Shown here: piece after piece, positions 12 to 40,214 of the stretch
How positions within the stretch are numbered: position 1 is the first letter of the stretch
Layout of the letters: each line of letters begins with the position of its first letter
Source: Archaeoglobaceae archaeon
Lineage (GTDB): Archaea > Halobacteriota > Archaeoglobi > Archaeoglobales > Archaeoglobaceae
Assembly (NCBI GenBank): GCA_026986375.1
Contig: JALSOQ010000012.1
Location: 1-43,208 of the forward strand
Length of the DNA stretch: 43,208 nt
Direction: 5' to 3'
The notes under the pieces: model-generated
The model's input: only the letters and a program-made list of their open reading frames with translations
Database searches by the model: none
Told to the model about the DNA's origin: nothing
Made by a program: the position numbers and the translations under genes

Positions 12-1316
12 TCAGAACCCTAACTTCGGCAACTTGAAGGGCAACCTTCCCTTCTCAAGCTTCTTCATCTTCTTCATCACGTTCTTCATCGTCTTGTAAT
101 ACTTCAGTAACTCCTTAACGTCCTGCAGAGTCGTTCCGCTACCTATCGCTATCCTCCTTATTCGCGAGGAGTCTATTATCTTCGGATTCAGAAGCTCCTC
201 CTCCGTCATCGAATCCATTATAACCTTGAACTTCTTCATCTTCTCCTGAGTCATCTCCATTACGTTCTCGTCCACCTTAAATGCTCCGAAGGGTAGGAGC
301 TCGAATATCTTGCTTATCGGCCCCATCTTCTGCATAGCCTCTATCTGCTTGTATATGTCCTTGAGCGTGAAAGTTCCCTTCAGGAACTTCTCGGGATCCA
401 GCTCCTCCTCCTTCGTAACCCTCTCTATCTTCTCTATCAGAGCCCTTATATCCCCCATTCCGAGCAGACGGGAAACGAATCCAGCCGGATCGAACCTCTC
501 GAAATCTTCGACCTTCTCTCCCGTTCCTATGAAAGCTATCGGAATACCTATCTCCCTCGCGGCCGAAAGAGCACCTCCTCCCTTGGCCGTTCCGTCGAAC
601 TTCGTTATTATTATGCCGTCGATTCCTATGGCCTCGTGGAAAGCCTTCGCCTGCTTGCTCGCGAGCTGACCTATTGCAGCGTCGAGCACGAGCAACTTGT
701 AATCCGGATTGGCAACTTTCGCTATCTCTATCATCTCGTCTATGAGCTCCCTCTCCAAAGCGTGCCTTCCGGCGGTATCTATTATTATCATGTCGTAATC
801 CCTGAGCTTCTTCAAAGCATTCTCTACAATCTTTACCGCATCCTTGTTGTCCTTCTCTCCGTAAAACGCTATCTTGTAGGATTCCGCCAACTGCTTAAGC
901 TGTTCGTAGGCTGCCGGCCTCCAAGTGTCCGCACACACAACAGCGGTCCTAAGACCCTTGTCCTTGAAGAACTTCGCGAGCTTAGCTGCGGTAGTAGTCT
1001 TACCGCTCCCCTGCAAACCGACGAGCATTATCTTCGATTTTTTCAGAGGTATTTCGAGCCCCTCTCCAACACCCCTGAGGAGTTCCTCGTAAACTATCTT
1101 TATGACGTGCTCTTTGGGATTCATTCCCTCCAAAACCTCCTCTCTCAAAGCCCTCTTCTTTATCGCATCCGTGATTTCCTTAACGTGCCTAACGTTAACG
1201 TCAGCCTTAATAAGAGCCCTCTGAATGTCCCTAACTATCTCTTCCACGAGCTTTCTATCTATCGAAGATGAGCGCGTGATCTTCCTAACTACGTCCTTGA
1301 GAGCCTCCAAAGACAT
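12..1316 (-). CDS. srp54: Signal recognition particle 54 kDa protein (SRP54)
   Basis: This is the GTPase of the signal recognition particle. It binds signal sequences and 7S RNA and delivers ribosomes to the FtsY receptor at the membrane. The 434-residue protein has the helical N domain (about 1-90), the G domain with Walker A GLQGSGKTT (100-108), DTAGR (180-184) and TKFDG (238-242), and a methionine-rich M domain from about residue 300. The length is close to the usual 430-450, so it looks complete. A TATA-like box (gttatatc on the coding strand, near 1338-1347) lies about 25 bases upstream of the ATG and no Shine-Dalgarno is visible, so the transcript is probably leaderless. The family assignment is secure from the motifs. 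Confidence 0.97.
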   Translation of the reverse strand: MSLEALKDVVRKITRSSSIDRKLVEEIVRDIQRALIKADVNVRHVKEITDAIKKRALREEVLEGMNPKEHVIKIVYEELLRGVGEGLEIPLKKSKIMLVGLQGSGKTTTAAKLAKFFKDKGLRTAVVCADTWRPAAYEQLKQLAESYKIAFYGEKDNKDAVKIVENALKKLRDYDMIIIDTAGRHALERELIDEMIEIAKVANPDYKLLVLDAAIGQLASKQAKAFHEAIGIDGIIITKFDGTAKGGGALSAAREIGIPIAFIGTGEKVEDFERFDPAGFVSRLLGMGDIRALIEKIERVTKEEELDPEKFLKGTFTLKDIYKQIEAMQKMGPISKIFELLPFGAFKVDENVMEMTQEKMKKFKVIMDSMTEEELLNPKIIDSSRIRRIAIGSGTTLQDVKELLKYYKTMKNVMKKMKKLEKGRLPFKLPKLGF

Positions 1317-30764: not shown

Positions 30765-32032
30765 AATCCCACCCAATCCCTATCCACGCTCTCCTTGGAC
30801 TTTCCGCCGAGCATCTCAATTACTTCCTTCAGAACGGAAACGCTCGCTGGGTGTAGCATCATGAATATGTCGGCTCCGGCTAAGGCGAGCGTTAAGCCGG
30901 TCAGAATCTCCCATATCGGCCCTCTGAGCTCTCTCGGCCCCCAAGGAGTATCTTCGGAAATCGGAGACTCCTTCATCCAAGCCTCTCTCGCACCCCACGC
31001 GTTCGTCGTTCCGCTCGAAATCGGGAAGGCCAAATCTCCGTCACCCTTCAAAGCCGCTATTCTTATCTTTTCCATGTTAGAGAAAGCGTAATCCAGTCCG
31101 TAACCTAAGGGGGCGGTGGTTGGATCCATTATTATGCTTTCCGGCGGTAACCCTGCCTTCTTCATGAGGTATCTGTTCAGAGTTCTTTGAGCGTTTATAT
31201 CGAGTTGGGTCCAAGCCAAGACGACGTGGCCGTGCTTCTTTGCCGCACTGGCAATCCTCTCCCAGTCGTTATCAAGAGTCGCGCTCGCGAGCAGAACTCT
31301 CTCTCCCTCGGCAACTTCCGCAACCTTCTCCAACAGCGGCGGATCCTTTTCCTTGTTACCGCTACCTCCAACCACTATCGGGCATTTAACCGCCTGCAAA
31401 ACGTCCTCAACCACCTTAACCGCCTCATGTATTGGAGTGTCGTCGAGCAAGGGATCGGTGCTTATGAGGTGGACGGTAACCATGTCCGCCCCGAAATCCT
31501 TAACGGCCTTTTTGGCCCATTCAGCAGGATTTTCCATTACGTCTTCATAATGCTCCCTAACGGCCTTAGGGAAGGGAACGGGCCTGTCGAAAACGTCTAT
31601 CGTAATCACGGGAAGATGAGGTTGCTCCTCGTAAAAGGGTAAATTCTTCTGCCCGCCGACGGTAATCGTATATTTTCTCGTTCCCCCCTCCTTAGGAGTT
31701 GCACCCAAAGTTACCTCCCTTATCCTTCCGGGGAATTCCTCCATCTGAGGCTTGAATCTCGCTTCGATGAGTTCGACTTTCTCTTCGACTTCCGTCTTGG
31801 GCTTCAATTCAACGCCGAACAACTGCTCCACCGGGAATCCCAAAACCTTAGCCGCTCTCGCCAGATGGTAGGCCGCCATTCCCAATTCGTATGCCAGAGC
31901 CTGAATGATCGGGAGAATGTTAGGAGCTTCTATCTCTATTTCTATATCCCCCTCTATCCTGACGCCTTCGAGCTCATCGACCTTGTAACTCTTCAACATC
32001 TTGATCAGATCTTCTAACTTCACTCCCCCCAC
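30761..32032 (-). CDS. cdhD: Corrinoid protein small subunit (CdhD, ACDS delta)
   Basis: The 423-residue delta subunit pairs with CdhE and helps take the methyl group from methyltetrahydromethanopterin. It has the TIM-barrel fold with VTLGATPKEGGTRKYTI and TIDVFDRPVP near the start, IVVGGSGNKEKDPPLLEKV, and the conserved GLPPESIIMDPTTAPLGYGL and AFPISSGTTNAWG stretches. GTG is the start: at 32032, or at 32023 where it would form a GTGA overlap with the cooC stop. Position in the operon (cooC before, cdhE after) is the standard archaeal order. Confidence 0.95.
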   Translation of the reverse strand: MGGVKLEDLIKMLKSYKVDELEGVRIEGDIEIEIEAPNILPIIQALAYELGMAAYHLARAAKVLGFPVEQLFGVELKPKTEVEEKVELIEARFKPQMEEFPGRIREVTLGATPKEGGTRKYTITVGGQKNLPFYEEQPHLPVITIDVFDRPVPFPKAVREHYEDVMENPAEWAKKAVKDFGADMVTVHLISTDPLLDDTPIHEAVKVVEDVLQAVKCPIVVGGSGNKEKDPPLLEKVAEVAEGERVLLASATLDNDWERIASAAKKHGHVVLAWTQLDINAQRTLNRYLMKKAGLPPESIIMDPTTAPLGYGLDYAFSNMEKIRIAALKGDGDLAFPISSGTTNAWGAREAWMKESPISEDTPWGPRELRGPIWEILTGLTLALAGADIFMMLHPASVSVLKEVIEMLGGKSKESVDRDWVGL

Positions 32033-32772
32033 CCCGTCAGAACTTCTGCAATGAACCTAACCCTTCTTGCGAATTCCGAGGTTTCGGGTAGATTGACTAT
32101 CGGCTCTCCTTTAAGGTCGAGTTCGACCACCCTCTCGTCGTATGGAAGGAGTTCGAGCAGGACGAAGTTCTCCTTTTTCGCGAAATCCTTTATGACCCTT
32201 TTGGCCTCATCTCCAGCAACCTTGTTCCCCACCAGAAATATCTCTCTGAAGTTCAGTTCAAGCTCCTTTGCAAGCTCTTTAATCTTCCTTGCCGTCTTTA
32301 ATCCCTTTCTCGACGTGTCCGTAACTACGATGATGTAGTCCGCACTCTCTATCGTTTTCCTGCTGAAGTGTTCGAGTCCCGCCTCGCAATCGACTATCAC
32401 GTAATCGTAATGCCTCATGAACTTCTTCAGAATTCCTCTCAGCAGGTTGTTCACGAAGCAGTAGCACCCCTCCCCCTCCGGCCTACCCATCACGAGCAGA
32501 TCGAAGTTTTCGAACTCGTGTATTGTTTCGAATATCTTTCCTTCGAGCCATGAGGATTTGTCGTGCAAAGAATCCCTGCTAACTTGAAACAGTTCCCTAA
32601 CGTCTCCCAAAGTTCTCTCGACCTCAACACCCAAAGCGTCCGGGAGATTGGAATCAGGATCCGCATCGACCGCAAGAACTTTCGAAGTCTTTTCAGAGAT
32701 ATACCTGACTAACAAAGCTGCAACGGCCGTTTTTCCCGTTCCCCCCTTCCCCGTCACCGCTATCACGACCAT
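32020..32772 (-). CDS. cooC: CO dehydrogenase nickel-insertion ATPase CooC
   Basis: This 250-residue P-loop ATPase of the MinD/ArsA class inserts or stores nickel for the CODH C-cluster. It has the deviant Walker A GKGGTGKT (8-15), AVDADPDSNLPDALGV, the CooC hallmark MGRPEGEGCYCFVNNLLR with the nickel-binding CxC pair, and DYVIVDCEAGLEHFSR. The ATG at 32770-32772 is one base after the stop of the 28-codon gene, and the end overlaps the cdhD start. It maps between cdhC and cdhD, as in methanogen cdh operons. Confidence 0.95.
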   Translation of the reverse strand: MVVIAVTGKGGTGKTAVAALLVRYISEKTSKVLAVDADPDSNLPDALGVEVERTLGDVRELFQVSRDSLHDKSSWLEGKIFETIHEFENFDLLVMGRPEGEGCYCFVNNLLRGILKKFMRHYDYVIVDCEAGLEHFSRKTIESADYIIVVTDTSRKGLKTARKIKELAKELELNFREIFLVGNKVAGDEAKRVIKDFAKKENFVLLELLPYDERVVELDLKGEPIVNLPETSEFARRVRFIAEVLTGWGE

Positions 32773-32773
32773 A

Positions 32774-32860
32774 CTACTCCTCTTCGAACCTCACCCTCTC
32801 GATGTATATCTTGGAGTTTTTCAAAATTATTTTGAGCTTTTGAGCGTTCTCTTCATCCAT
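32774..32860 (-). CDS. 28-codon gene repeating the CdhC C-terminal tail
   Basis: Between cdhC and cooC an ATG opens a 28-codon frame ending in TAG one base before the cooC ATG. AAGGAGTGA (containing the cdhC stop) lies about nine bases before this ATG as a ribosome site. The peptide begins MDEENAQK, continues LKIILKNSKIYIERVRF and ends EEE. Its core matches the last part of CdhC, IRLVIKNAKIYIDKVVI, at nine identical positions of 17 with the others mostly similar, and a 16-base DNA stretch is shared exactly. Function is unknown; a docking or competitor peptide for the CODH/ACS complex is possible. Too short for routine gene callers. Confidence 0.6.
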   Translation of the reverse strand: MDEENAQKLKIILKNSKIYIERVRFEEE

Positions 32861-32925
32861 AATTACGATTCACTCCTTCTTATCTTCAACCTTTCGAATT
32901 ACGACCTTATCGATGTATATCTTGG
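32799..32925. repeat. 16-bp direct repeat in the CdhC tail and the 28-codon gene
   Basis: TCGATGTATATCTTGG occurs at 32799-32814 and again at 32910-32925, 111 bases apart. It encodes the shared KIYI segment in the 28-codon gene and in the cdhC C-terminus. It may be the remnant of a tandem duplication or reflect selection on the peptide. Confidence 0.7.
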
Positions 32926-34366
32926 CGTTCTTTATCACCAGCCTTATCGTGGGTGCGGAAATTTGAGGAACTTGGGTCGGAATTTGAGTCGGAAAAGTCG
33001 CCGGAACCTCCGGACCCTTCTCTACCTCCTCCCTCTCCTCCTTCTCCTCTTCCTCCTTTTCCTCAAGCCAGCCGTCCGTTATCTTTTTCCCATCGACGGG
33101 CCTGACCACACCTTTAACGACCGGATGATCGACCCTCTTAAGGAATTCCTTCAGCTCCTCCATAGTTTTGGCGTCCTCTTCTGTTGCTATCTTATCTCTC
33201 ATATCTTTTGGAATGTATTTCAGAACCTTCTCCTTCAACTCCTTCGGCATCCAGACTACCCTATACCATCCTCCGTCAGCCTGCAGGAACTTCTTGCTTC
33301 TGAAGTATGCCATTCCAACCCCCAAAAATCCGACCGTCTGCTTCCCTCCTCCCGCTTGACCGGCCATAGTTGAGAAAGCCAGTCCGTTCGGAGCGGTATC
33401 CGGATAACCTCTGTGAACGAACCCTATCCCGTCGACTTCCGGCATGTAGAATCCTATCACCTCGAAACAACCGCACGACGTATGTGGGGCGTCGAAGAAG
33501 CTGTGAAGCTTTACTTTCTCAACGCTCCCACCGCTCTCCTGCTTTACGAACTCGTTAACTCCCGAATATTCTCCAGCTATCGGATCCAAGCATTCTCCCT
33601 TCGGTATGGCTCTGTTCGGTCCCTCTGGATCGATCTTACAAGCGGCCCTCGCGTCGAACCAAGTTATCGCTCCACACAAAGCGGGTCTGTCCGGACTTAT
33701 AACGCAAACGTGACTCGGGGCAAAGCTCTGACAGAGTGAACAGGAGTAGAACTCATCAACATCCTCATCGTGCAGTTTCTCCACCCTTGCATCTCTCTCC
33801 TCGTAAATCGGCCTCGCCATCTCTTCGAGCAACTTCTCCACGAGTTCTCTGTCGGTTATGTAAAGCGCTTCAATCTTCTCTATGAAAGGCATCTCGTTCT
33901 TGAAGAGCAACATGGTGGCCTTCGCTATCTGCAAAAGGCTCTTCAGACCCTTTTTAATCATGTTCTTTCCAATTCTGCACCATATAGTGTCTCTCGAATT
34001 TATATGCATGAATCCCTCTATGTAATTCTGGAACTCGTGGTTCCTCCTTTCCACAATAGGCTCTATATCCGGATCTATCTTCTCTCCAGCTATGTAGTAT
34101 ATCATAGCGAAAGGATAACGTCCTCCTTCCTCCATCTCGTCGACATCAACACCGACGAGGGTCGCCTTCAGATCCTCAACCTGATCCGACGGAAGGGATA
34201 TGACGAGCTCGAAACCCGGTTGCTTTGGCCCGGCCAATTCCACGAACATGTCTCCCTTCCTTATCCTCTCCCCTTCGAACATCGGAGATATTTCGAACGG
34301 AAATTCCTCCTCTCCGACGCTTACCTTCACTTTTTTTCCTTCGGGGATCTCCACTTTTTTTCTCAA
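32870..34366 (-). CDS. cdhC: Acetyl-CoA synthase catalytic subunit (CdhC, ACDS beta)
   Basis: Condenses CO, methyl and CoA to acetyl-CoA on the nickel-iron A-cluster. The 498-residue protein has the A-cluster cysteines in FYSCSLCQSFAPSHVCVIS, RPALCGAITWF and TSCGCFEVIGF. After residue 405 comes a charged, proline-rich linker (long EEE and KEE runs, then PTQIPTQVP) and a terminal strand-like tail IRLVIKNAKIYIDKVVI. The start is TTG: GGAGGTG stands six bases before it and the cdhB stop is directly adjacent. The short form without the bacterial N-terminal domains is normal for archaea. Confidence 0.95.
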   Translation of the reverse strand: MRKKVEIPEGKKVKVSVGEEEFPFEISPMFEGERIRKGDMFVELAGPKQPGFELVISLPSDQVEDLKATLVGVDVDEMEEGGRYPFAMIYYIAGEKIDPDIEPIVERRNHEFQNYIEGFMHINSRDTIWCRIGKNMIKKGLKSLLQIAKATMLLFKNEMPFIEKIEALYITDRELVEKLLEEMARPIYEERDARVEKLHDEDVDEFYSCSLCQSFAPSHVCVISPDRPALCGAITWFDARAACKIDPEGPNRAIPKGECLDPIAGEYSGVNEFVKQESGGSVEKVKLHSFFDAPHTSCGCFEVIGFYMPEVDGIGFVHRGYPDTAPNGLAFSTMAGQAGGGKQTVGFLGVGMAYFRSKKFLQADGGWYRVVWMPKELKEKVLKYIPKDMRDKIATEEDAKTMEELKEFLKRVDHPVVKGVVRPVDGKKITDGWLEEKEEEEKEEREEVEKGPEVPATFPTQIPTQVPQISAPTIRLVIKNAKIYIDKVVIRKVEDKKE

Positions 34367-34852: not shown

Positions 34853-37212
34853 CACCTCAGTAACTTTTCACCCGTATACTTCTCGTAAACGTGCTCGACT
34901 ATCGTGGGGTTGAATCCGGGATCGTATTGTCTTATAGGCCCTTCTACTATCTTCTTACTTTTCCAATCAATCTTCCAGCCGTGTTCGTCTTCCAAAATCT
35001 TAAGCAATCTGTCCTTCATCTTTACGGGTAAATCCGCCTCGCTTCTAACGAAAAGGTGCCAGTCGTCCGGCAGACATCCCAAATACTTTTCGCTAAGCTC
35101 TATGTAGTGCGTTAGCTTTATCTGCCTGCCCTGCGGAGTATCTCCCGGTCTTATGCAGAGTCTCGCAAGCTGAACTATCGCCTCCTCTTTCGTTTCGGCG
35201 CACACCAGAAGAGCGTCCGGAGCGGGTTCGACTCTCATCCTCTTCCTCGATCTTATGTCGTAAACCCACCAGACGTCCTTCCAAAACTTCCCTATGTATG
35301 CCCTCCTGTATTTGGAGGCGTGGGGACCCACCACTACGGGAATGCCCAGCCTGTTGAATCCAGTTGCTATGCTCGCGGCCTTCTGACTGTAAGCACCCCA
35401 AGCGAGGCCGACCGCTCCAACTCTGTTCAGTATGTAATCCGCTATTTCGGCGTAGTTTCCCCTGAGAGGTCTTTTCGCGAATATGGCCGCTATCTTTATC
35501 ACCGCACCGCTGATGTGCGAGTTTGCGACGCAACTTCCGACGTTGACCAATCCTCCTCCGTCGAAAACTCCGGGATACTTCTCGTATAGACTCTTCCCCT
35601 CCTCGTCGAAGTATAGACCCAAATCCATCGCGTGACATCCAGAAGTGACTACGATGAACCTCCTCCTCAAGAACTCCTCAATTATGCTACCGAGCTCTTC
35701 CCTCGCTCCGGGATAGTTGGGACAACCGACAGCCGCTATTACTCCCGGAATCGTTCCCATGACTATCGGCTGACCGACCTTCCTGATTTCGGTGTCCGTT
35801 ATCGGCCCCCTTCCCGCCCTGCTCCTACCCTTAACCTTTATATCCATCCCAACGCTCATTATTATATCCACTATCCTAATCCCCTTAGGACACGCCTGCT
35901 CGCACTTACCGCACGCTATGCAACTTCTGTCTATCTCCTTGAACATTGAGAAGTCCCCTTTCTTAGCAAGTCCCATAGCTACATCTATCCTAAGACAGTG
36001 CGGACAGGAAAAGACGCATCTACCACATCCAGTGCATTTCCGAACTTCGTTTTCTACCTCCTCCCTGCTCATCAATACCTTCTTCTTTCCCTTTCTCTTC
36101 CTCACAGCCAATGCAGTTTTAACGGCTATTTCTCCGACTTTGTCTGGATCCCTAATAAGAACGCCCTTCAACCTACCGCTCGCGAGATCTTCAACTATAA
36201 CGTCTATGTTTTCGTTCGTTTTATCCGGCAAGCCTCTCGCGGAGGCCTCCGAAGTGGCTATTACAGGAATTCCAACCTTCGAACATTCCTTTAGAGTGTC
36301 CGCCCTTATGCACTGCTCATCCGTTACGACGACATCTGGAATCCCTGACCTTATTGCCCTAAGCTCAAAGCTCAGCGTTCCAACGATCTTAGCCTTAGGA
36401 TCGTATCTCGATGTGTCTATGGCGGTGCAACAGAGACCGGCCACCTCAACATCGTTTTCCATCCCGTGCTCTTCAAGGTAGTCCATGATGTTTCTTGCAG
36501 GAAGGACGTTGTGTCCTATTATCAGTATAACGGGCTTTTCAGCATCTAAAACACCGAACCCCGTCTCTATTAGTGGAGAATCGGGATCTCCTTTTGGATA
36601 GTTAAACGCGACTATCTGAGCTATGTCCGCGACTTCCATCGCCACGTGATCGAGCATTCCAACGTGAAGAGCTTTGGACTCGTAGTCCAAGTAGCTCTCC
36701 TCCTGTCCCGTGTGAGTAGAGTGTAGGATCCTTACGAGTTGCTCCTCGACGTAATCCAAGACAGCCTCCAGATCTCCTACCGTCTTTGGCCTTATACCGA
36801 AAACGAGCCTTATGTTCGGTGCTTCTATCTCGACATCCTTTCCCAAATCTATGGGATAGTCCCTACCGAACTTCTCAACTACGTATTCGACGAGATGCCT
36901 CGCGTGAGAGCAGTGAGCGGAAGCACCGATAAGACAGGCCAAAACAACTATCCTCGCCTTCTGAGTTTTAAGGTCGATACCGCACGCCCCCTTCTTGTTG
37001 CGGGAGAGCTCACAGGGTCCCATGGTGCACAGGTTGCAGAAATCCTGCATAGGCGCGTAGAAGGGTTCGTATCTCTCTAAAAGCTTTTGATCCCAATATC
37101 GAAGGTCTAAGACGTCTGGTTTCGGTGTTGGTCCCATGGGTTCCCATTCGTCTTCTTCTACGATCCTTCCGATGTGTATTCTAACGTTGTTAAGGTGAAT
37201 GTCCATGACCAT
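34852..37212 (-). CDS. cdhA: CO dehydrogenase catalytic subunit (CdhA, ACDS alpha)
   Basis: Interconverts CO and CO2 at the nickel C-cluster and passes electrons through Fe-S clusters. About 786 residues from this start. Near the N-terminus FCNLCTMGPCELSRNKKGAC supplies the B- and D-cluster type cysteines. In the middle two ferredoxin motifs, CTGCGRCVFSCPHC and CIACGKCEQACPKG, form the archaeal-specific clusters. The C-cluster ligands lie in later stretches such as VTSGCHAMDLG and NVGSCVANSHI. The ATG at 37230 is in frame but only nine bases past the TATA-like ttttataatc; the ATGs at 37212 and 37206 fit transcription better. The N-terminal IHLNNVRIHIGRIV resembles the CdhC tail. Confidence 0.94.
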   Translation of the reverse strand: MVMDIHLNNVRIHIGRIVEEDEWEPMGPTPKPDVLDLRYWDQKLLERYEPFYAPMQDFCNLCTMGPCELSRNKKGACGIDLKTQKARIVVLACLIGASAHCSHARHLVEYVVEKFGRDYPIDLGKDVEIEAPNIRLVFGIRPKTVGDLEAVLDYVEEQLVRILHSTHTGQEESYLDYESKALHVGMLDHVAMEVADIAQIVAFNYPKGDPDSPLIETGFGVLDAEKPVILIIGHNVLPARNIMDYLEEHGMENDVEVAGLCCTAIDTSRYDPKAKIVGTLSFELRAIRSGIPDVVVTDEQCIRADTLKECSKVGIPVIATSEASARGLPDKTNENIDVIVEDLASGRLKGVLIRDPDKVGEIAVKTALAVRKRKGKKKVLMSREEVENEVRKCTGCGRCVFSCPHCLRIDVAMGLAKKGDFSMFKEIDRSCIACGKCEQACPKGIRIVDIIMSVGMDIKVKGRSRAGRGPITDTEIRKVGQPIVMGTIPGVIAAVGCPNYPGAREELGSIIEEFLRRRFIVVTSGCHAMDLGLYFDEEGKSLYEKYPGVFDGGGLVNVGSCVANSHISGAVIKIAAIFAKRPLRGNYAEIADYILNRVGAVGLAWGAYSQKAASIATGFNRLGIPVVVGPHASKYRRAYIGKFWKDVWWVYDIRSRKRMRVEPAPDALLVCAETKEEAIVQLARLCIRPGDTPQGRQIKLTHYIELSEKYLGCLPDDWHLFVRSEADLPVKMKDRLLKILEDEHGWKIDWKSKKIVEGPIRQYDPGFNPTIVEHVYEKYTGEKLLR

Positions 37213-37328: not shown

Positions 37329-37694
37329 TTAGCGATAACGTTCGAGCAGTTCGTCTTGCGTCGTAACCCCGTCATCCGTCGGTTCGATAGTGACCTTATC
37401 GGAATCCAAGTAGCTCGAATAAATACTTTTAGGCATTAAAGCTTTGTTTTCCGGAGCCATTTCGTCCACCTTGATTCTCAAATTCAAAGATCTCTCTCCA
37501 GCCGAAACCTTAACCATCTGTCCGTCCTTGAGTCCGAAAGCTTTTGCCGTATTCGGATGAATTATTATCAGAGCAGATCTTTCGACGAAATCTTTATCAA
37601 ATTTATCCCTTTCAGAAACTGAAGCTTGAAAACCGTCCCTGTAAGTCGTAAGTTCGATTTCCAATTTCCTGAGAAATTTTGCGAACCTTAACAT
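37329..37694 (-). CDS. Formylmethanofuran dehydrogenase subunit D-like protein
   Basis: This 121-residue protein resembles FwdD/FmdD, the molybdopterin-dinucleotide binding beta-barrel subunit of formylmethanofuran dehydrogenase. The typical stretch IHPNTAKAFGLKDGQMVKVS is followed by VDEMAPENKALMPKSIY. In the usual enzyme it holds one pyranopterin guanine dinucleotide beside the tungsten or molybdenum in FwdB. GGAGG lies eight bases before the ATG, and the ATG follows the FwdB-like stop by one base, so the two are an operon. Because the paired FwdB-like protein lacks the metal-ligand cysteine, the role of this copy is open. Confidence 0.8.
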   Translation of the reverse strand: MLRFAKFLRKLEIELTTYRDGFQASVSERDKFDKDFVERSALIIIHPNTAKAFGLKDGQMVKVSAGERSLNLRIKVDEMAPENKALMPKSIYSSYLDSDKVTIEPTDDGVTTQDELLERYR

Positions 37695-37695
37695 T

Positions 37696-38793
37696 TCACA
37701 AACCTCCGTTAATACTCTTTAATATCTTCTCCTCGCTAAATCCCTCCTTAAACGGAGGTTTCAGTTCGACTTCCTTGAAGTCGCACCTTAGCATTTTTCC
37801 TCCACATTCCAACCCCGAAATAGCAGAAGGAATTACGACGTCGGCGAACTTCGAAATAAAACTAATTTTAGGAGTGATCACTATTATCTTCAGCTTGAGA
37901 ATACTCTTCATAACATCGAATCCGACATCGTCCATCGGATCGTCTCCAACGACTATCAACGTATCGATATCTTCGACGATTTTTTCCAACTCGTCTCTCC
38001 TTCCGAATGTCTTGAAGAATCCCATCGAGTTCGTCCTGTAATCTAACGGAACGAAGTATCCTACTTCTTTAACGAACTCCTCAATCAATTTCATCGGAGC
38101 ATCGATCTGCCCTCCTAAGATTACGTTGAATTCGGACTTTTTAACCTCTCTAACCACTCTCATAACGTCTCCACTGGCCACTCCCCCCCTTATAGCTTTA
38201 ATGAACTCACCGATCAATTCGGCGTCATTTTCCGTTTTAAAGAATGATGCGTTCTTCTTCGCAAGCATGGCGGTATGACTCTTCCTAACATCCACCACTA
38301 CCAGATACCTGTCCTCTTCGTATCCCCTCTGCCTTTTCTTTCCTCTCGCGTAATATGTCCGTGCCATTAACCTCGGCATCGAGTTGTGAACATCGCACCT
38401 CCAGTAGAACTGAACGTAAGCGTAGTCTCTAACGTCCTCGATAGTCGTGATTGGAATCAGCCCTTCGAATATCGCTTCGACAATTCTTCCGAATTCGGAT
38501 CCGTTGTCCACAAAAGCCGAAAGCTTCTCCGCAAGCTTTAAGGCCTCTCTCTGAGCCTCAAGGGTCGATCTGTTTAGGCCGTATATCGCTACCCCCTTAG
38601 ATTCCTTAAGTATCTCCACCGCTTTATCGATGGCCGAATCGATGTCCGTCCTTTTTCCTTCCACGAGCGGTTCCGCCCTCGATATCGAACGTCCCCTAAA
38701 TAGCTCGGCACCTATTCTACACGCATGCCTCACCGTATTCTCGTCGATTTCCACATCCTCGCACAGGCAGGAACATCCCGTGCACGTCCACAT
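37696..38793 (-). CDS. FwdB-like protein lacking the metal-ligand cysteine
   Basis: This 365-residue protein is like the catalytic subunit FwdB/FmdB, which reduces CO2 to formate for methanofuran. The N-terminal [4Fe-4S] site is present (C4, C7, C11 with extra C9, and C25), and the region WRCDVHNSMPRLMARTYYAR corresponds to the FwdB stretch around HPRHMSRY. FwdB carries its tungsten/molybdenum-binding Cys (or Sec) between these two features. Here the interval from residue 26 to 132 has no cysteine, and the aligned segment reads NGSEFGRIVEA. GGAG precedes ATG 38793, which overlaps the ferredoxin stop as TGATG, so the open frame further upstream is not used. It is somewhat shorter than typical FwdB (about 430). 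Confidence 0.8.
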   Translation of the reverse strand: MWTCTGCSCLCEDVEIDENTVRHACRIGAELFRGRSISRAEPLVEGKRTDIDSAIDKAVEILKESKGVAIYGLNRSTLEAQREALKLAEKLSAFVDNGSEFGRIVEAIFEGLIPITTIEDVRDYAYVQFYWRCDVHNSMPRLMARTYYARGKKRQRGYEEDRYLVVVDVRKSHTAMLAKKNASFFKTENDAELIGEFIKAIRGGVASGDVMRVVREVKKSEFNVILGGQIDAPMKLIEEFVKEVGYFVPLDYRTNSMGFFKTFGRRDELEKIVEDIDTLIVVGDDPMDDVGFDVMKSILKLKIIVITPKISFISKFADVVIPSAISGLECGGKMLRCDFKEVELKPPFKEGFSEEKILKSINGGL

Positions 38794-39257
38794 CACAACT
38801 CCTCCAGAAATGCTATCGCCGAAGTTGGACAACACTCCCTGCAGGCCACACAGATCATTTTATCCCTATATCTCCTGCACAGACCGACATCCACGACTCT
38901 AACCCTACCGTTTTCCACTCTAAGTATTGGCCTTTCGAGCTTGACCCCATATCCCGATCCCGCTCCCTTTGGATCCTCGTAAACGTGAACGGGACAAACG
39001 ACTACGCAGTTTCCACATCCGATGCAGAGCTCTTCGTTAACTACGAGTCCAGTTTCAGTTGCCTTCTCAATTACCGCGAGGATCTCTTCAAGTTTTCTTC
39101 TGTTTTCTTCGAACTCTTTTTCGAAAAGGGGTTTACAATCGTTCAAGCTTTTCTCCCCCTTTAACAGCTTAAAAGCGAAGCTCATGCACGTTTGCTCGCC
39201 ACAGAGCTTGCAGTTCGTCTTGGGAAGGAATTTGTATATATCCATCGGTGAAGGCAT
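38793..39257 (-). CDS. Fe-S protein with CdhE-type domain and ferredoxin domain
   Basis: This 154-residue electron carrier combines two modules. Residues 1-45 repeat the N-terminal [4Fe-4S] domain of CdhE: C16, C19, C24, C41, with 21 of 39 positions identical to CdhE from this window (DIYKFLPKTNC, TCMSFA and CKPL are shared or nearly so). The second half is ferredoxin-like with CIGCGNCVVVCP and MICVACRECCPTSAI. It heads the unit with the FwdB-like and FwdD-like genes and probably passes electrons to them. The frame starts with TTG at 39278, but the ATG at 39257 has a better TATA spacing (ctttaatta near 39282-39290). Confidence 0.8.
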   Translation of the reverse strand: MPSPMDIYKFLPKTNCKLCGEQTCMSFAFKLLKGEKSLNDCKPLFEKEFEENRRKLEEILAVIEKATETGLVVNEELCIGCGNCVVVCPVHVYEDPKGAGSGYGVKLERPILRVENGRVRVVDVGLCRRYRDKMICVACRECCPTSAIAFLEEL

Positions 39258-39332
39258 AACCCAATTCCACGCAATCAATAATTAAAGATTGCGCGCGTGA
39301 TAATAGTAATTACCATTTACAAAATTATATTC

Positions 39333-39356
39333 AGTAAAAAATATATACTTTTTACT
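39333..39356. promoter_or_regulatory. Inverted repeat around the TATA box of the cytochrome gene
   Basis: AGTAAAAA (39333-39340) and TTTTTACT (39349-39356) are perfect inverted arms. The eight-base spacer ATATATAC is itself the best TATA candidate, about 43 bases before the ATG at 39384. A protein bound here would compete with TBP. Confidence 0.45.
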
Positions 39357-39383
39357 CAAACTACATTTTGGGAGGCATCGATC

Positions 39384-40214
39384 ATGAACATATCAAAAAT
39401 CGTTCTCATAGTGATCATCTTCACCGCTACAGGTTTAGTCGTTCTACCTAACACTGTTTCCCTCTTTGCCGGGCAACACTACTGGTACAATCTGAGCGGA
39501 ACGGGAAACGATATTCCGTGTAAGAAGTGCCACGCGGATATATACGAGGAGATGCACGCTCACATCGGCCCTCACACTGGAGAAACAGGCTACGTCTTCA
39601 AGTGCGAGCTCTGTCACAGAGCTGGTGGATTCAACGGGCTTAAGTTCGCGACCGTTAACGGTAGCTACACATCCTACTCCCCCGGAGTTCAGGCCCACGC
39701 GGCGAGCGTGGTGAGGTGTATGGACTGCCACGGTGCCTACAACAACATTAATCATGTCATATATTATTACAATATAAATCCCAAGACTTGTGTTATATGT
39801 CACGGAAACACGCTTAATAAAGCTGCTATTAACGCCTCCTATGTGATCGCCGGAGGTTTCGGCCTAACTTCTATGCCGGAAGACACCGGGATCTATGCAG
39901 CCCACAAGGCGTTCGTCTTGGAGGCCAACAACAGTTCCATGCTGAGGAGTGAAAACGAGGCATGCATCGCCTGTCATACTGCCGTTCCGGTTAAGATCAC
40001 TTGGAAGCACAAGAGAAGCATAGAGTTTTCTGTGACCATATCCAACCCCGTTACGGTTAGTTACGGCGTTCACAACTGGAATGTGAGCGATTGGAGTGTT
40101 AACGGAACCGCACTCGTTACGGTCTACGGTAACACCACCGGATTCGGAGCTACGAGCTCTGCAAACATAACTTGGCCCGGCGTAATTCCGAACACGAGCT
40201 ACGTGTATTCGTAA
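39384..40214 (+). CDS. Secreted five-haem c-type cytochrome
   Basis: This 276-residue protein starts with a hydrophobic signal or anchor (about 5-27). It carries five CxxCH haem sites: CKKCH, CELCH, CMDCH, CVICH and CIACH. Nine further histidines could serve as second axial ligands. After the last haem about 65 residues of Ser/Thr/Asn-rich, probably beta-structured sequence follow. The mature part holds ten N-x-S/T sequons (such as NLS, NGS, NAS, NVS, NTT, NIT), five of them in the last 45 residues, so surface exposure and N-glycosylation are likely. GGGAGG lies nine bases before the ATG. A role in extracellular electron transfer, such as metal reduction, is inferred. Confidence 0.85.
   Translation: MNISKIVLIVIIFTATGLVVLPNTVSLFAGQHYWYNLSGTGNDIPCKKCHADIYEEMHAHIGPHTGETGYVFKCELCHRAGGFNGLKFATVNGSYTSYSPGVQAHAASVVRCMDCHGAYNNINHVIYYYNINPKTCVICHGNTLNKAAINASYVIAGGFGLTSMPEDTGIYAAHKAFVLEANNSSMLRSENEACIACHTAVPVKITWKHKRSIEFSVTISNPVTVSYGVHNWNVSDWSVNGTALVTVYGNTTGFGATSSANITWPGVIPNTSYVYS

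Follow-up and report, generated by a model that had tools for sequence, protein, structure and literature searches.

A small conserved gene between cdhC and cooC of Archaeoglobaceae encodes a probable free-standing relative of the CdhC tail

Among the enzyme complexes that fix CO2, CODH/ACS is central and very ancient, and CdhC is its acetyl-CoA synthase subunit. By cryo-EM, the contacts with CODH are made by the ACS domains A2 and A3, while the M. thermophila structures do not resolve a C-terminal extension of CdhC of ~75 residues, described as 'of unknown function' (PMC11474084). The authors of that study regarded the extension as likely flexible, and as likely to matter when ACS moves between CODH and CFeSP (PMC11474084). 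The first-pass annotation of the DNA studied here had started from the view that archaeal CdhC joins CdhA through its flexible C-terminal part. This premise is not established, since the ACS-CODH contacts seen run through A2 and A3. A groove of CdhA as the known docking site is not supported either.

The closest functional precedents for the gene described below are MtrI (PMC12774963) and MtrR (PMC13370731), two small proteins that bind the Mtr complex of Methanosarcina mazei. Like our peptide, both are overlooked small proteins proposed for a large C1 complex. They differ from it in having experimental binding data, and neither is reported to copy the tail of a subunit.

A 28-codon gene in the cdh operon

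The window, meaning the whole stretch of 43,208 nucleotides that was analysed, carries a cdh operon on its minus strand with the following features around the small gene.

32870-34366, minus strand: cdhC, ACS beta subunit, 498 residues (Pfam PF03598/PF19436, TIGR00316)
32897-32947, minus strand: C-terminal tail motif of CdhC, IRLVIKNAKIYIDKVVI, probably homologous to the small peptide (own-genome search, profile-profile comparison)
32871-32876, minus strand: GGAGTG across the end of cdhC and its stop, a candidate ribosome-binding site for the small gene (sequence)
32774-32860, minus strand: stand-alone gene for a CdhC-tail-like peptide of 28 residues (ORF, relatives, pN/pS)
32786-32836, minus strand: conserved 17-residue core of the small peptide, LKIILKNSKIYIERVRF (alignment, position table)
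32777-32784, minus strand: purine run in the acidic-tail codons, GAAGAGGAG, a possible ribosome-binding site of cooC (read from the sequence)
32020-32772, minus strand: cooC-like nickel-insertion ATPase (Pfam CbiA/AAA_31/Fer4_NifH)

The first-pass annotation had placed an ATG frame of 28 codons between cdhC and cooC, with a ribosome site and a stop one base ahead of the cooC ATG, and its layout is confirmed. The frame, for which the first-pass annotation had named no strand, runs on the minus strand from an ATG at 32860, 9 nt beyond the cdhC stop, to a stop at 32774 (MDEENAQKLKIILKNSKIYIERVRFEEE), with cdhC upstream and cooC downstream, and a single base (32773) separates it from the cooC ATG at 32772. 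The candidate ribosome site is a GGAG at 32873-32876, within the final cdhC codons and 12 nt from the small-gene ATG. The plus-strand reading of 32774-32860 is meaningless, and no structured RNA or terminator was found in the cdhC-cooC gap. Directly upstream of the cdh operon, the ORF list shows by eye genes for a formylmethanofuran-dehydrogenase-like and an Fe-S protein (37329-39278), and a frame on the strand opposite the operon (39297-40214, plus) has several CxxCH motifs and is likely a multiheme cytochrome.

Relatives were gathered from the cdh regions of related genomes and from 80 named contigs. A whole-genome alignment-based search returned a strong free-standing match at E <= 6e-9 in 36 of 55 Archaeoglobaceae genomes and 9 of 13 genera; here and elsewhere, several counts rest on metagenome-assembled genomes. 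The remaining family genomes gave no match or a weaker one, which as a rule was the tail of CdhC itself. Frames with this core sit in the cdhC-cooC gap throughout the window's genus, and the majority of the other family genera have them too. The peptides are 22-43 residues long, and examples include MKDERQNAGKFKIILKDAKIYIEKVRFEEE (locus L031), MTDKKDEPKFIKITLKGAEIKISEMIIEE (L035), MKIELKGAKIYVEKIVFKKKKR (L039) and MEEEVKKVKLILKGAQIHIPELIIEEEE, which recurs in L037, L047 and L160. The L160 genome is presumably that of A. fulgidus; its frame shares bases with the cdhC stop at one end and with the cooC start at the other. In a transcriptome paper the A. fulgidus operon is given as AF0376-AF0379; these would be cdhE, cdhD, cooC and cdhC, and if so no number is left for the small gene. 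No Pfam or NCBIfam model matched the peptide, and no earlier description of the gene was found in the literature searchable without subscription. That the gene lies below gene-calling size and is apparently unannotated stands.

The start codon of the small gene and the cdhC stop share bases in most genomes (offset -1 or -4). The distance from the end of the small gene to the start of cooC ranges from -7 to +31 bases and is mostly -4 to +2; the gene is directly upstream of cooC in all loci examined. The gene is probably translationally coupled, and its acidic end codons may provide the ribosome-binding site of cooC. The stop codon between cdhC and the small frame is kept in all genomes examined, and a read-through product was rejected because TGA and TAA are both used and the frames are mostly offset. 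An AF2 prediction of the in-frame read-through tandem of CdhC tail and peptide (stop as W) was of low confidence (pLDDT 52, pTM 0.22) and carries no weight here.

Over 31 distinct cores, pN/pS was 0.00 among pairs with differences at <12% of bases, 0.06 at <20% and 0.13 at <30%, compared with 1.3 or more for the control frames +1 and +2 on the identical bases. The pair L087/L090 differs by 9 synonymous and no non-synonymous changes, and L077/L078 by 10 and 2. The core is consequently under strong purifying selection, seen in the frame of the small gene only. Since relatives share the gap in 36 of the 55 genomes and selection is confined to one frame, the frame is beyond chance, and it is almost certainly a real gene.

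Relationship to the CdhC tail

We translated 35 loci in six frames and searched the resulting 19,226 reading frames with an HMM made from CdhC tails alone. The CdhC tails, two split tail genes (see below) and the small frames outranked every unrelated frame, with the small frames reaching down to E of about 3.5. Profile-profile comparison of the small peptide with the CdhC tail gave p=0.0002 by column shuffling and an hhalign E of 2.6e-6, and the window's genome holds two convincing motif sites only, the CdhC tail (2e-12) and the small frame (4e-4). These comparisons argue strongly that the small peptide is a paralog of the CdhC tail, corresponding to the final ~20 residues of CdhC, and support the proposal of a stand-alone relative of the CdhC C-terminus. 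The 16 identical bases that had first drawn attention to the pair (CCAAGATATACATCGA) are present, but are weak evidence (P = 0.007 versus codon-resampled copies). In the remaining 30 distinct loci the small gene and its own CdhC tail have only 5-10 bases in common, and recent gene conversion was rejected because the 16-base identity is absent from them.

Compared with the CdhC C-terminal extension (TIGR00316; M. thermophila residues 398-472, PDB 9c0s/9c0t), the peptide shares an apparently homologous core of 17 residues, which in the extension has the pattern I-K-L-x-[LI]-K-[ND]-A-x-I-x-[IV]-x-x-[IV]-[IV]-[IV]. Unlike the extension, it stands on a separate frame, free of the Pro/Gln-rich linker and of the enzyme, and at 28 residues it has none of the A2/A3 domains with the A-cluster that mark CdhC/ACS beta (TIGR00316, PF03598, PF19436). 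The two also differ within the core: position 7 is G in 94% of small peptides and N/D in 100% of CdhC tails, position 13 is P/S/E versus mostly D/G, and position 14 is mostly E versus K/R, while the end of the small peptide is usually acidic rather than basic. Because these paralog signatures (LKGA and E/P/S-E in the small peptide, K[ND]A and DK in CdhC) differ, the peptide is specialised and not a spare copy; the window's genus and genus g7 come nearest to the CdhC state (KIYIEKV, KIYVEKI). A search with the CdhC tail gave no further PDB match.

A further motif of interest lies at the start of CdhA.

37153-37203, minus strand: N-terminal motif of CdhA, DIHLNNVRIHIGRIVEE, possibly related (conservation, profile-profile comparison, AF2)

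This near-invariant motif, L-x-N-V-x-I-x-I-G-x-[IV], is found at the CdhA N-termini of all loci (N15 and I20 near-invariant, G21 invariant). Its conserved pattern is similar to that of the small peptide, and AF2 left residues 1-28 of the CdhA monomer unfolded (pLDDT < 50). Profile comparison is no more than suggestive of homology to the CdhC tail (p=0.008, hhalign E=0.016), the match to the small peptide being weak (p=0.075), and a profile of the CdhA N-terminus did not retrieve the tails among the 19,226 frames of the 35 loci. We therefore treat the CdhA N-terminus as a suggestive and not a sure relative. The CdhD N-terminus (VEELEGVxIEGDxEIE), similar by eye, was rejected after column shuffles (p 0.29-0.90). 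As a separate observation, locus L060 (genome G032) has a stand-alone frame of 39 residues, MTTEKEPYISGIHGILKEYSIELVGVTIEGDIEIEIEEI, at oriented +188..308 past the cdhC stop and directly ahead of cooC; it resembles the CdhD N-terminal segment, and the CdhD N-terminus of G032 is different.

Gain, loss and separate tail genes

The history of the small gene was read on a tree of the CdhC body (86 rows, quick search), the 17 residues of the core being too few for a tree. The best reading has five changes, one gain and four losses. The gain falls at the base of Archaeoglobaceae, where 34 of the 45 sampled family rows carry the gene, and both the sister family and the sampled Methanosarcinales-type relatives are without it. 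In the lineages that lost the gene, the cdhC-cooC gap is just 0-20 nt. The gene is accessory, given one gain and four losses, and non-essential, given that it was cleanly lost in four lineages; it is thus useful yet dispensable. Its most likely origin is a duplication of the cdhC 3' end. The suggestion that such a gene might be present, and unannotated, across the whole order is not upheld, as it is the trait of one family, lost four times and lacking in the sister family.

The family commonly has a short CdhC-like protein as a second copy (identity about 33-45%, without a match to the tail; examples are G005:C1:1423693, G014:C1:810849, G017:C1:775401 and G016:C10:12564, among others), and none was found in the window's genome. 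These tail-less paralogs were rejected as the peptide's client because, by inspection, their presence does not track the small gene.

A tail-motif search of 295 genomes of one archaeal phylum identified some that carry the motif on a short frame and not on the CdhC frame of 470-540 residues. In three families (f8, f9 and f21) the tail is its own gene of 61-94 residues between cdhC and cooC, and the CdhC of these families, being without the tail, ends in a short helical-looking segment, '...KEKVIAFIEKYGGEIDTDNVKNELLMSEGQFMQVVEALQADGVLE', which we read as possibly winged-helix-like. The split tail proteins (for example MAKLVLKKKEAAAP...GGAGIKLVLKDAKITIDKVVLAK) have a K-rich N-terminus and an Ala/Pro linker, and NCBIfam matched such a protein only as a piece of cdhC, far below cut-off. 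On the CdhC tree the split state takes three changes. The genes lie at these positions in their loci.

L149:7985-8188, plus strand: split tail gene
L150:7936-8136, minus strand: split tail gene
L152:8116-8301, plus strand: split tail gene
L153:7928-8113, minus strand: split tail gene
L154:4662-4865, minus strand: split tail gene
L155:7592-7870, plus strand: split tail gene
L158:5620-5832, minus strand: split tail gene
L176, L177 and L178: further split tail genes

These genes show that the CdhC tail can be separated from the enzyme and produced alone. Because it is encoded by a separate gene beside a tail-less CdhC, the tail can apparently work in trans, which makes a trans role for the window peptide reasonable. 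Both kinds of gene place the tail motif on its own frame between cdhC and cooC; in contrast to the split tail genes, the small gene accompanies a CdhC that retains its tail, and it is without the K-rich N-terminus and the Ala/Pro linker.

Possible roles in the ACDS assembly

The peptide probably acts by binding within ACDS (CODH/ACS-corrinoid protein), and it may well be a supernumerary structural or tuning subunit rather than a competitor, a reading that we prefer with confidence evenly balanced. The micro-protein carries the tail motif alone, and the motif would need an ACDS partner to take up its fold, a beta strand or strand-turn-strand; folding on a partner, the partner's identity and the effect are what we infer. 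CdhC tails would dock in the same assembly, and the micro-protein would be a non-covalent, supernumerary copy at an equivalent but not identical site, where it would stabilise or tune the holding of CdhC. A docking site common to the peptide and the CdhC tail is plausible.

A wider version, possible but doubtful, is a motif-based assembly hub in which the beta motifs of the CdhC C-terminus, the CdhA N-terminus and the micro-proteins fold together only in the assembly, with Archaeoglobaceae having added a micro-subunit and other archaea having split the tail off as an adaptor subunit. In such a hub, a plausible picture, the motifs would fold on one another or on a partner in common, and the micro-protein would be one more member. 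The common hub is a guess, because the resemblance of the CdhA N-terminus is weak and its profile misses the tails. If it were true, the accepted five-subunit composition would be incomplete.

It is less likely that the peptide is a competitor or regulator that takes the socket of the CdhC tail, releases or blocks CdhC and so tunes the number of ACS attached. Such a role would suit a motif that is the same as that of the CdhC tail and comes without linker or enzyme, and small unannotated binders of a central methanogen complex are known in MtrI (PMC12774963) and MtrR (PMC13370731). However, the gene lies between cdhC and cooC, and in most genomes its start and the cdhC stop overlap, so the peptide should be made together with CdhC, which would be strange for an inhibitor. 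The consistent differences at several core positions point to a non-identical site.

As to origin, we consider it quite unlikely that the small gene and the split CdhC tail genes elsewhere are one gene by descent, so that an old separate tail gene would have survived here in place of a duplicate of the fused tail. The slot between cdhC and cooC is identical, but the absence of the gene from the sister family and from the Methanosarcinales-type relatives on the CdhC tree makes a new gain cheaper, and the K-rich N-terminus and Ala/Pro linker are missing. The same slot bears on the suggestion that the peptide uses the tail motif to hold CooC at the complex, which is improbable and unsupported. 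The constant position directly ahead of cooC would fit such an adaptor, but since split tail genes occupy this slot too, position alone is no pointer to CooC; moreover, the peptide has little besides the motif (its variable N-terminal part shrinks to 0-2 residues), and lineages that have lost the small gene keep a cooC that carries no extension. Least probable of all is a functionless peptide, translated as a coupler for cooC or left over from duplication: the end of the small gene touches or overlaps the start of cooC, whose ribosome-binding site can be supplied by the acidic codons, but amino acids are conserved in frame 0 only, and the core is conserved while N-terminal length, cdhC offset and frame relative to cooC vary, so coupling may come in addition to a peptide function.

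According to the cryo-EM authors (PMC11474084), the CdhC extension is missing information on ACS movement between CODH and the corrinoid protein. With a free, evolved copy of this tail and with lineages in which the tail is split off, the tail's binding partner and its action in trans become testable questions. Annotated ACDS operons may omit a subunit, those of cultured Archaeoglobus included.
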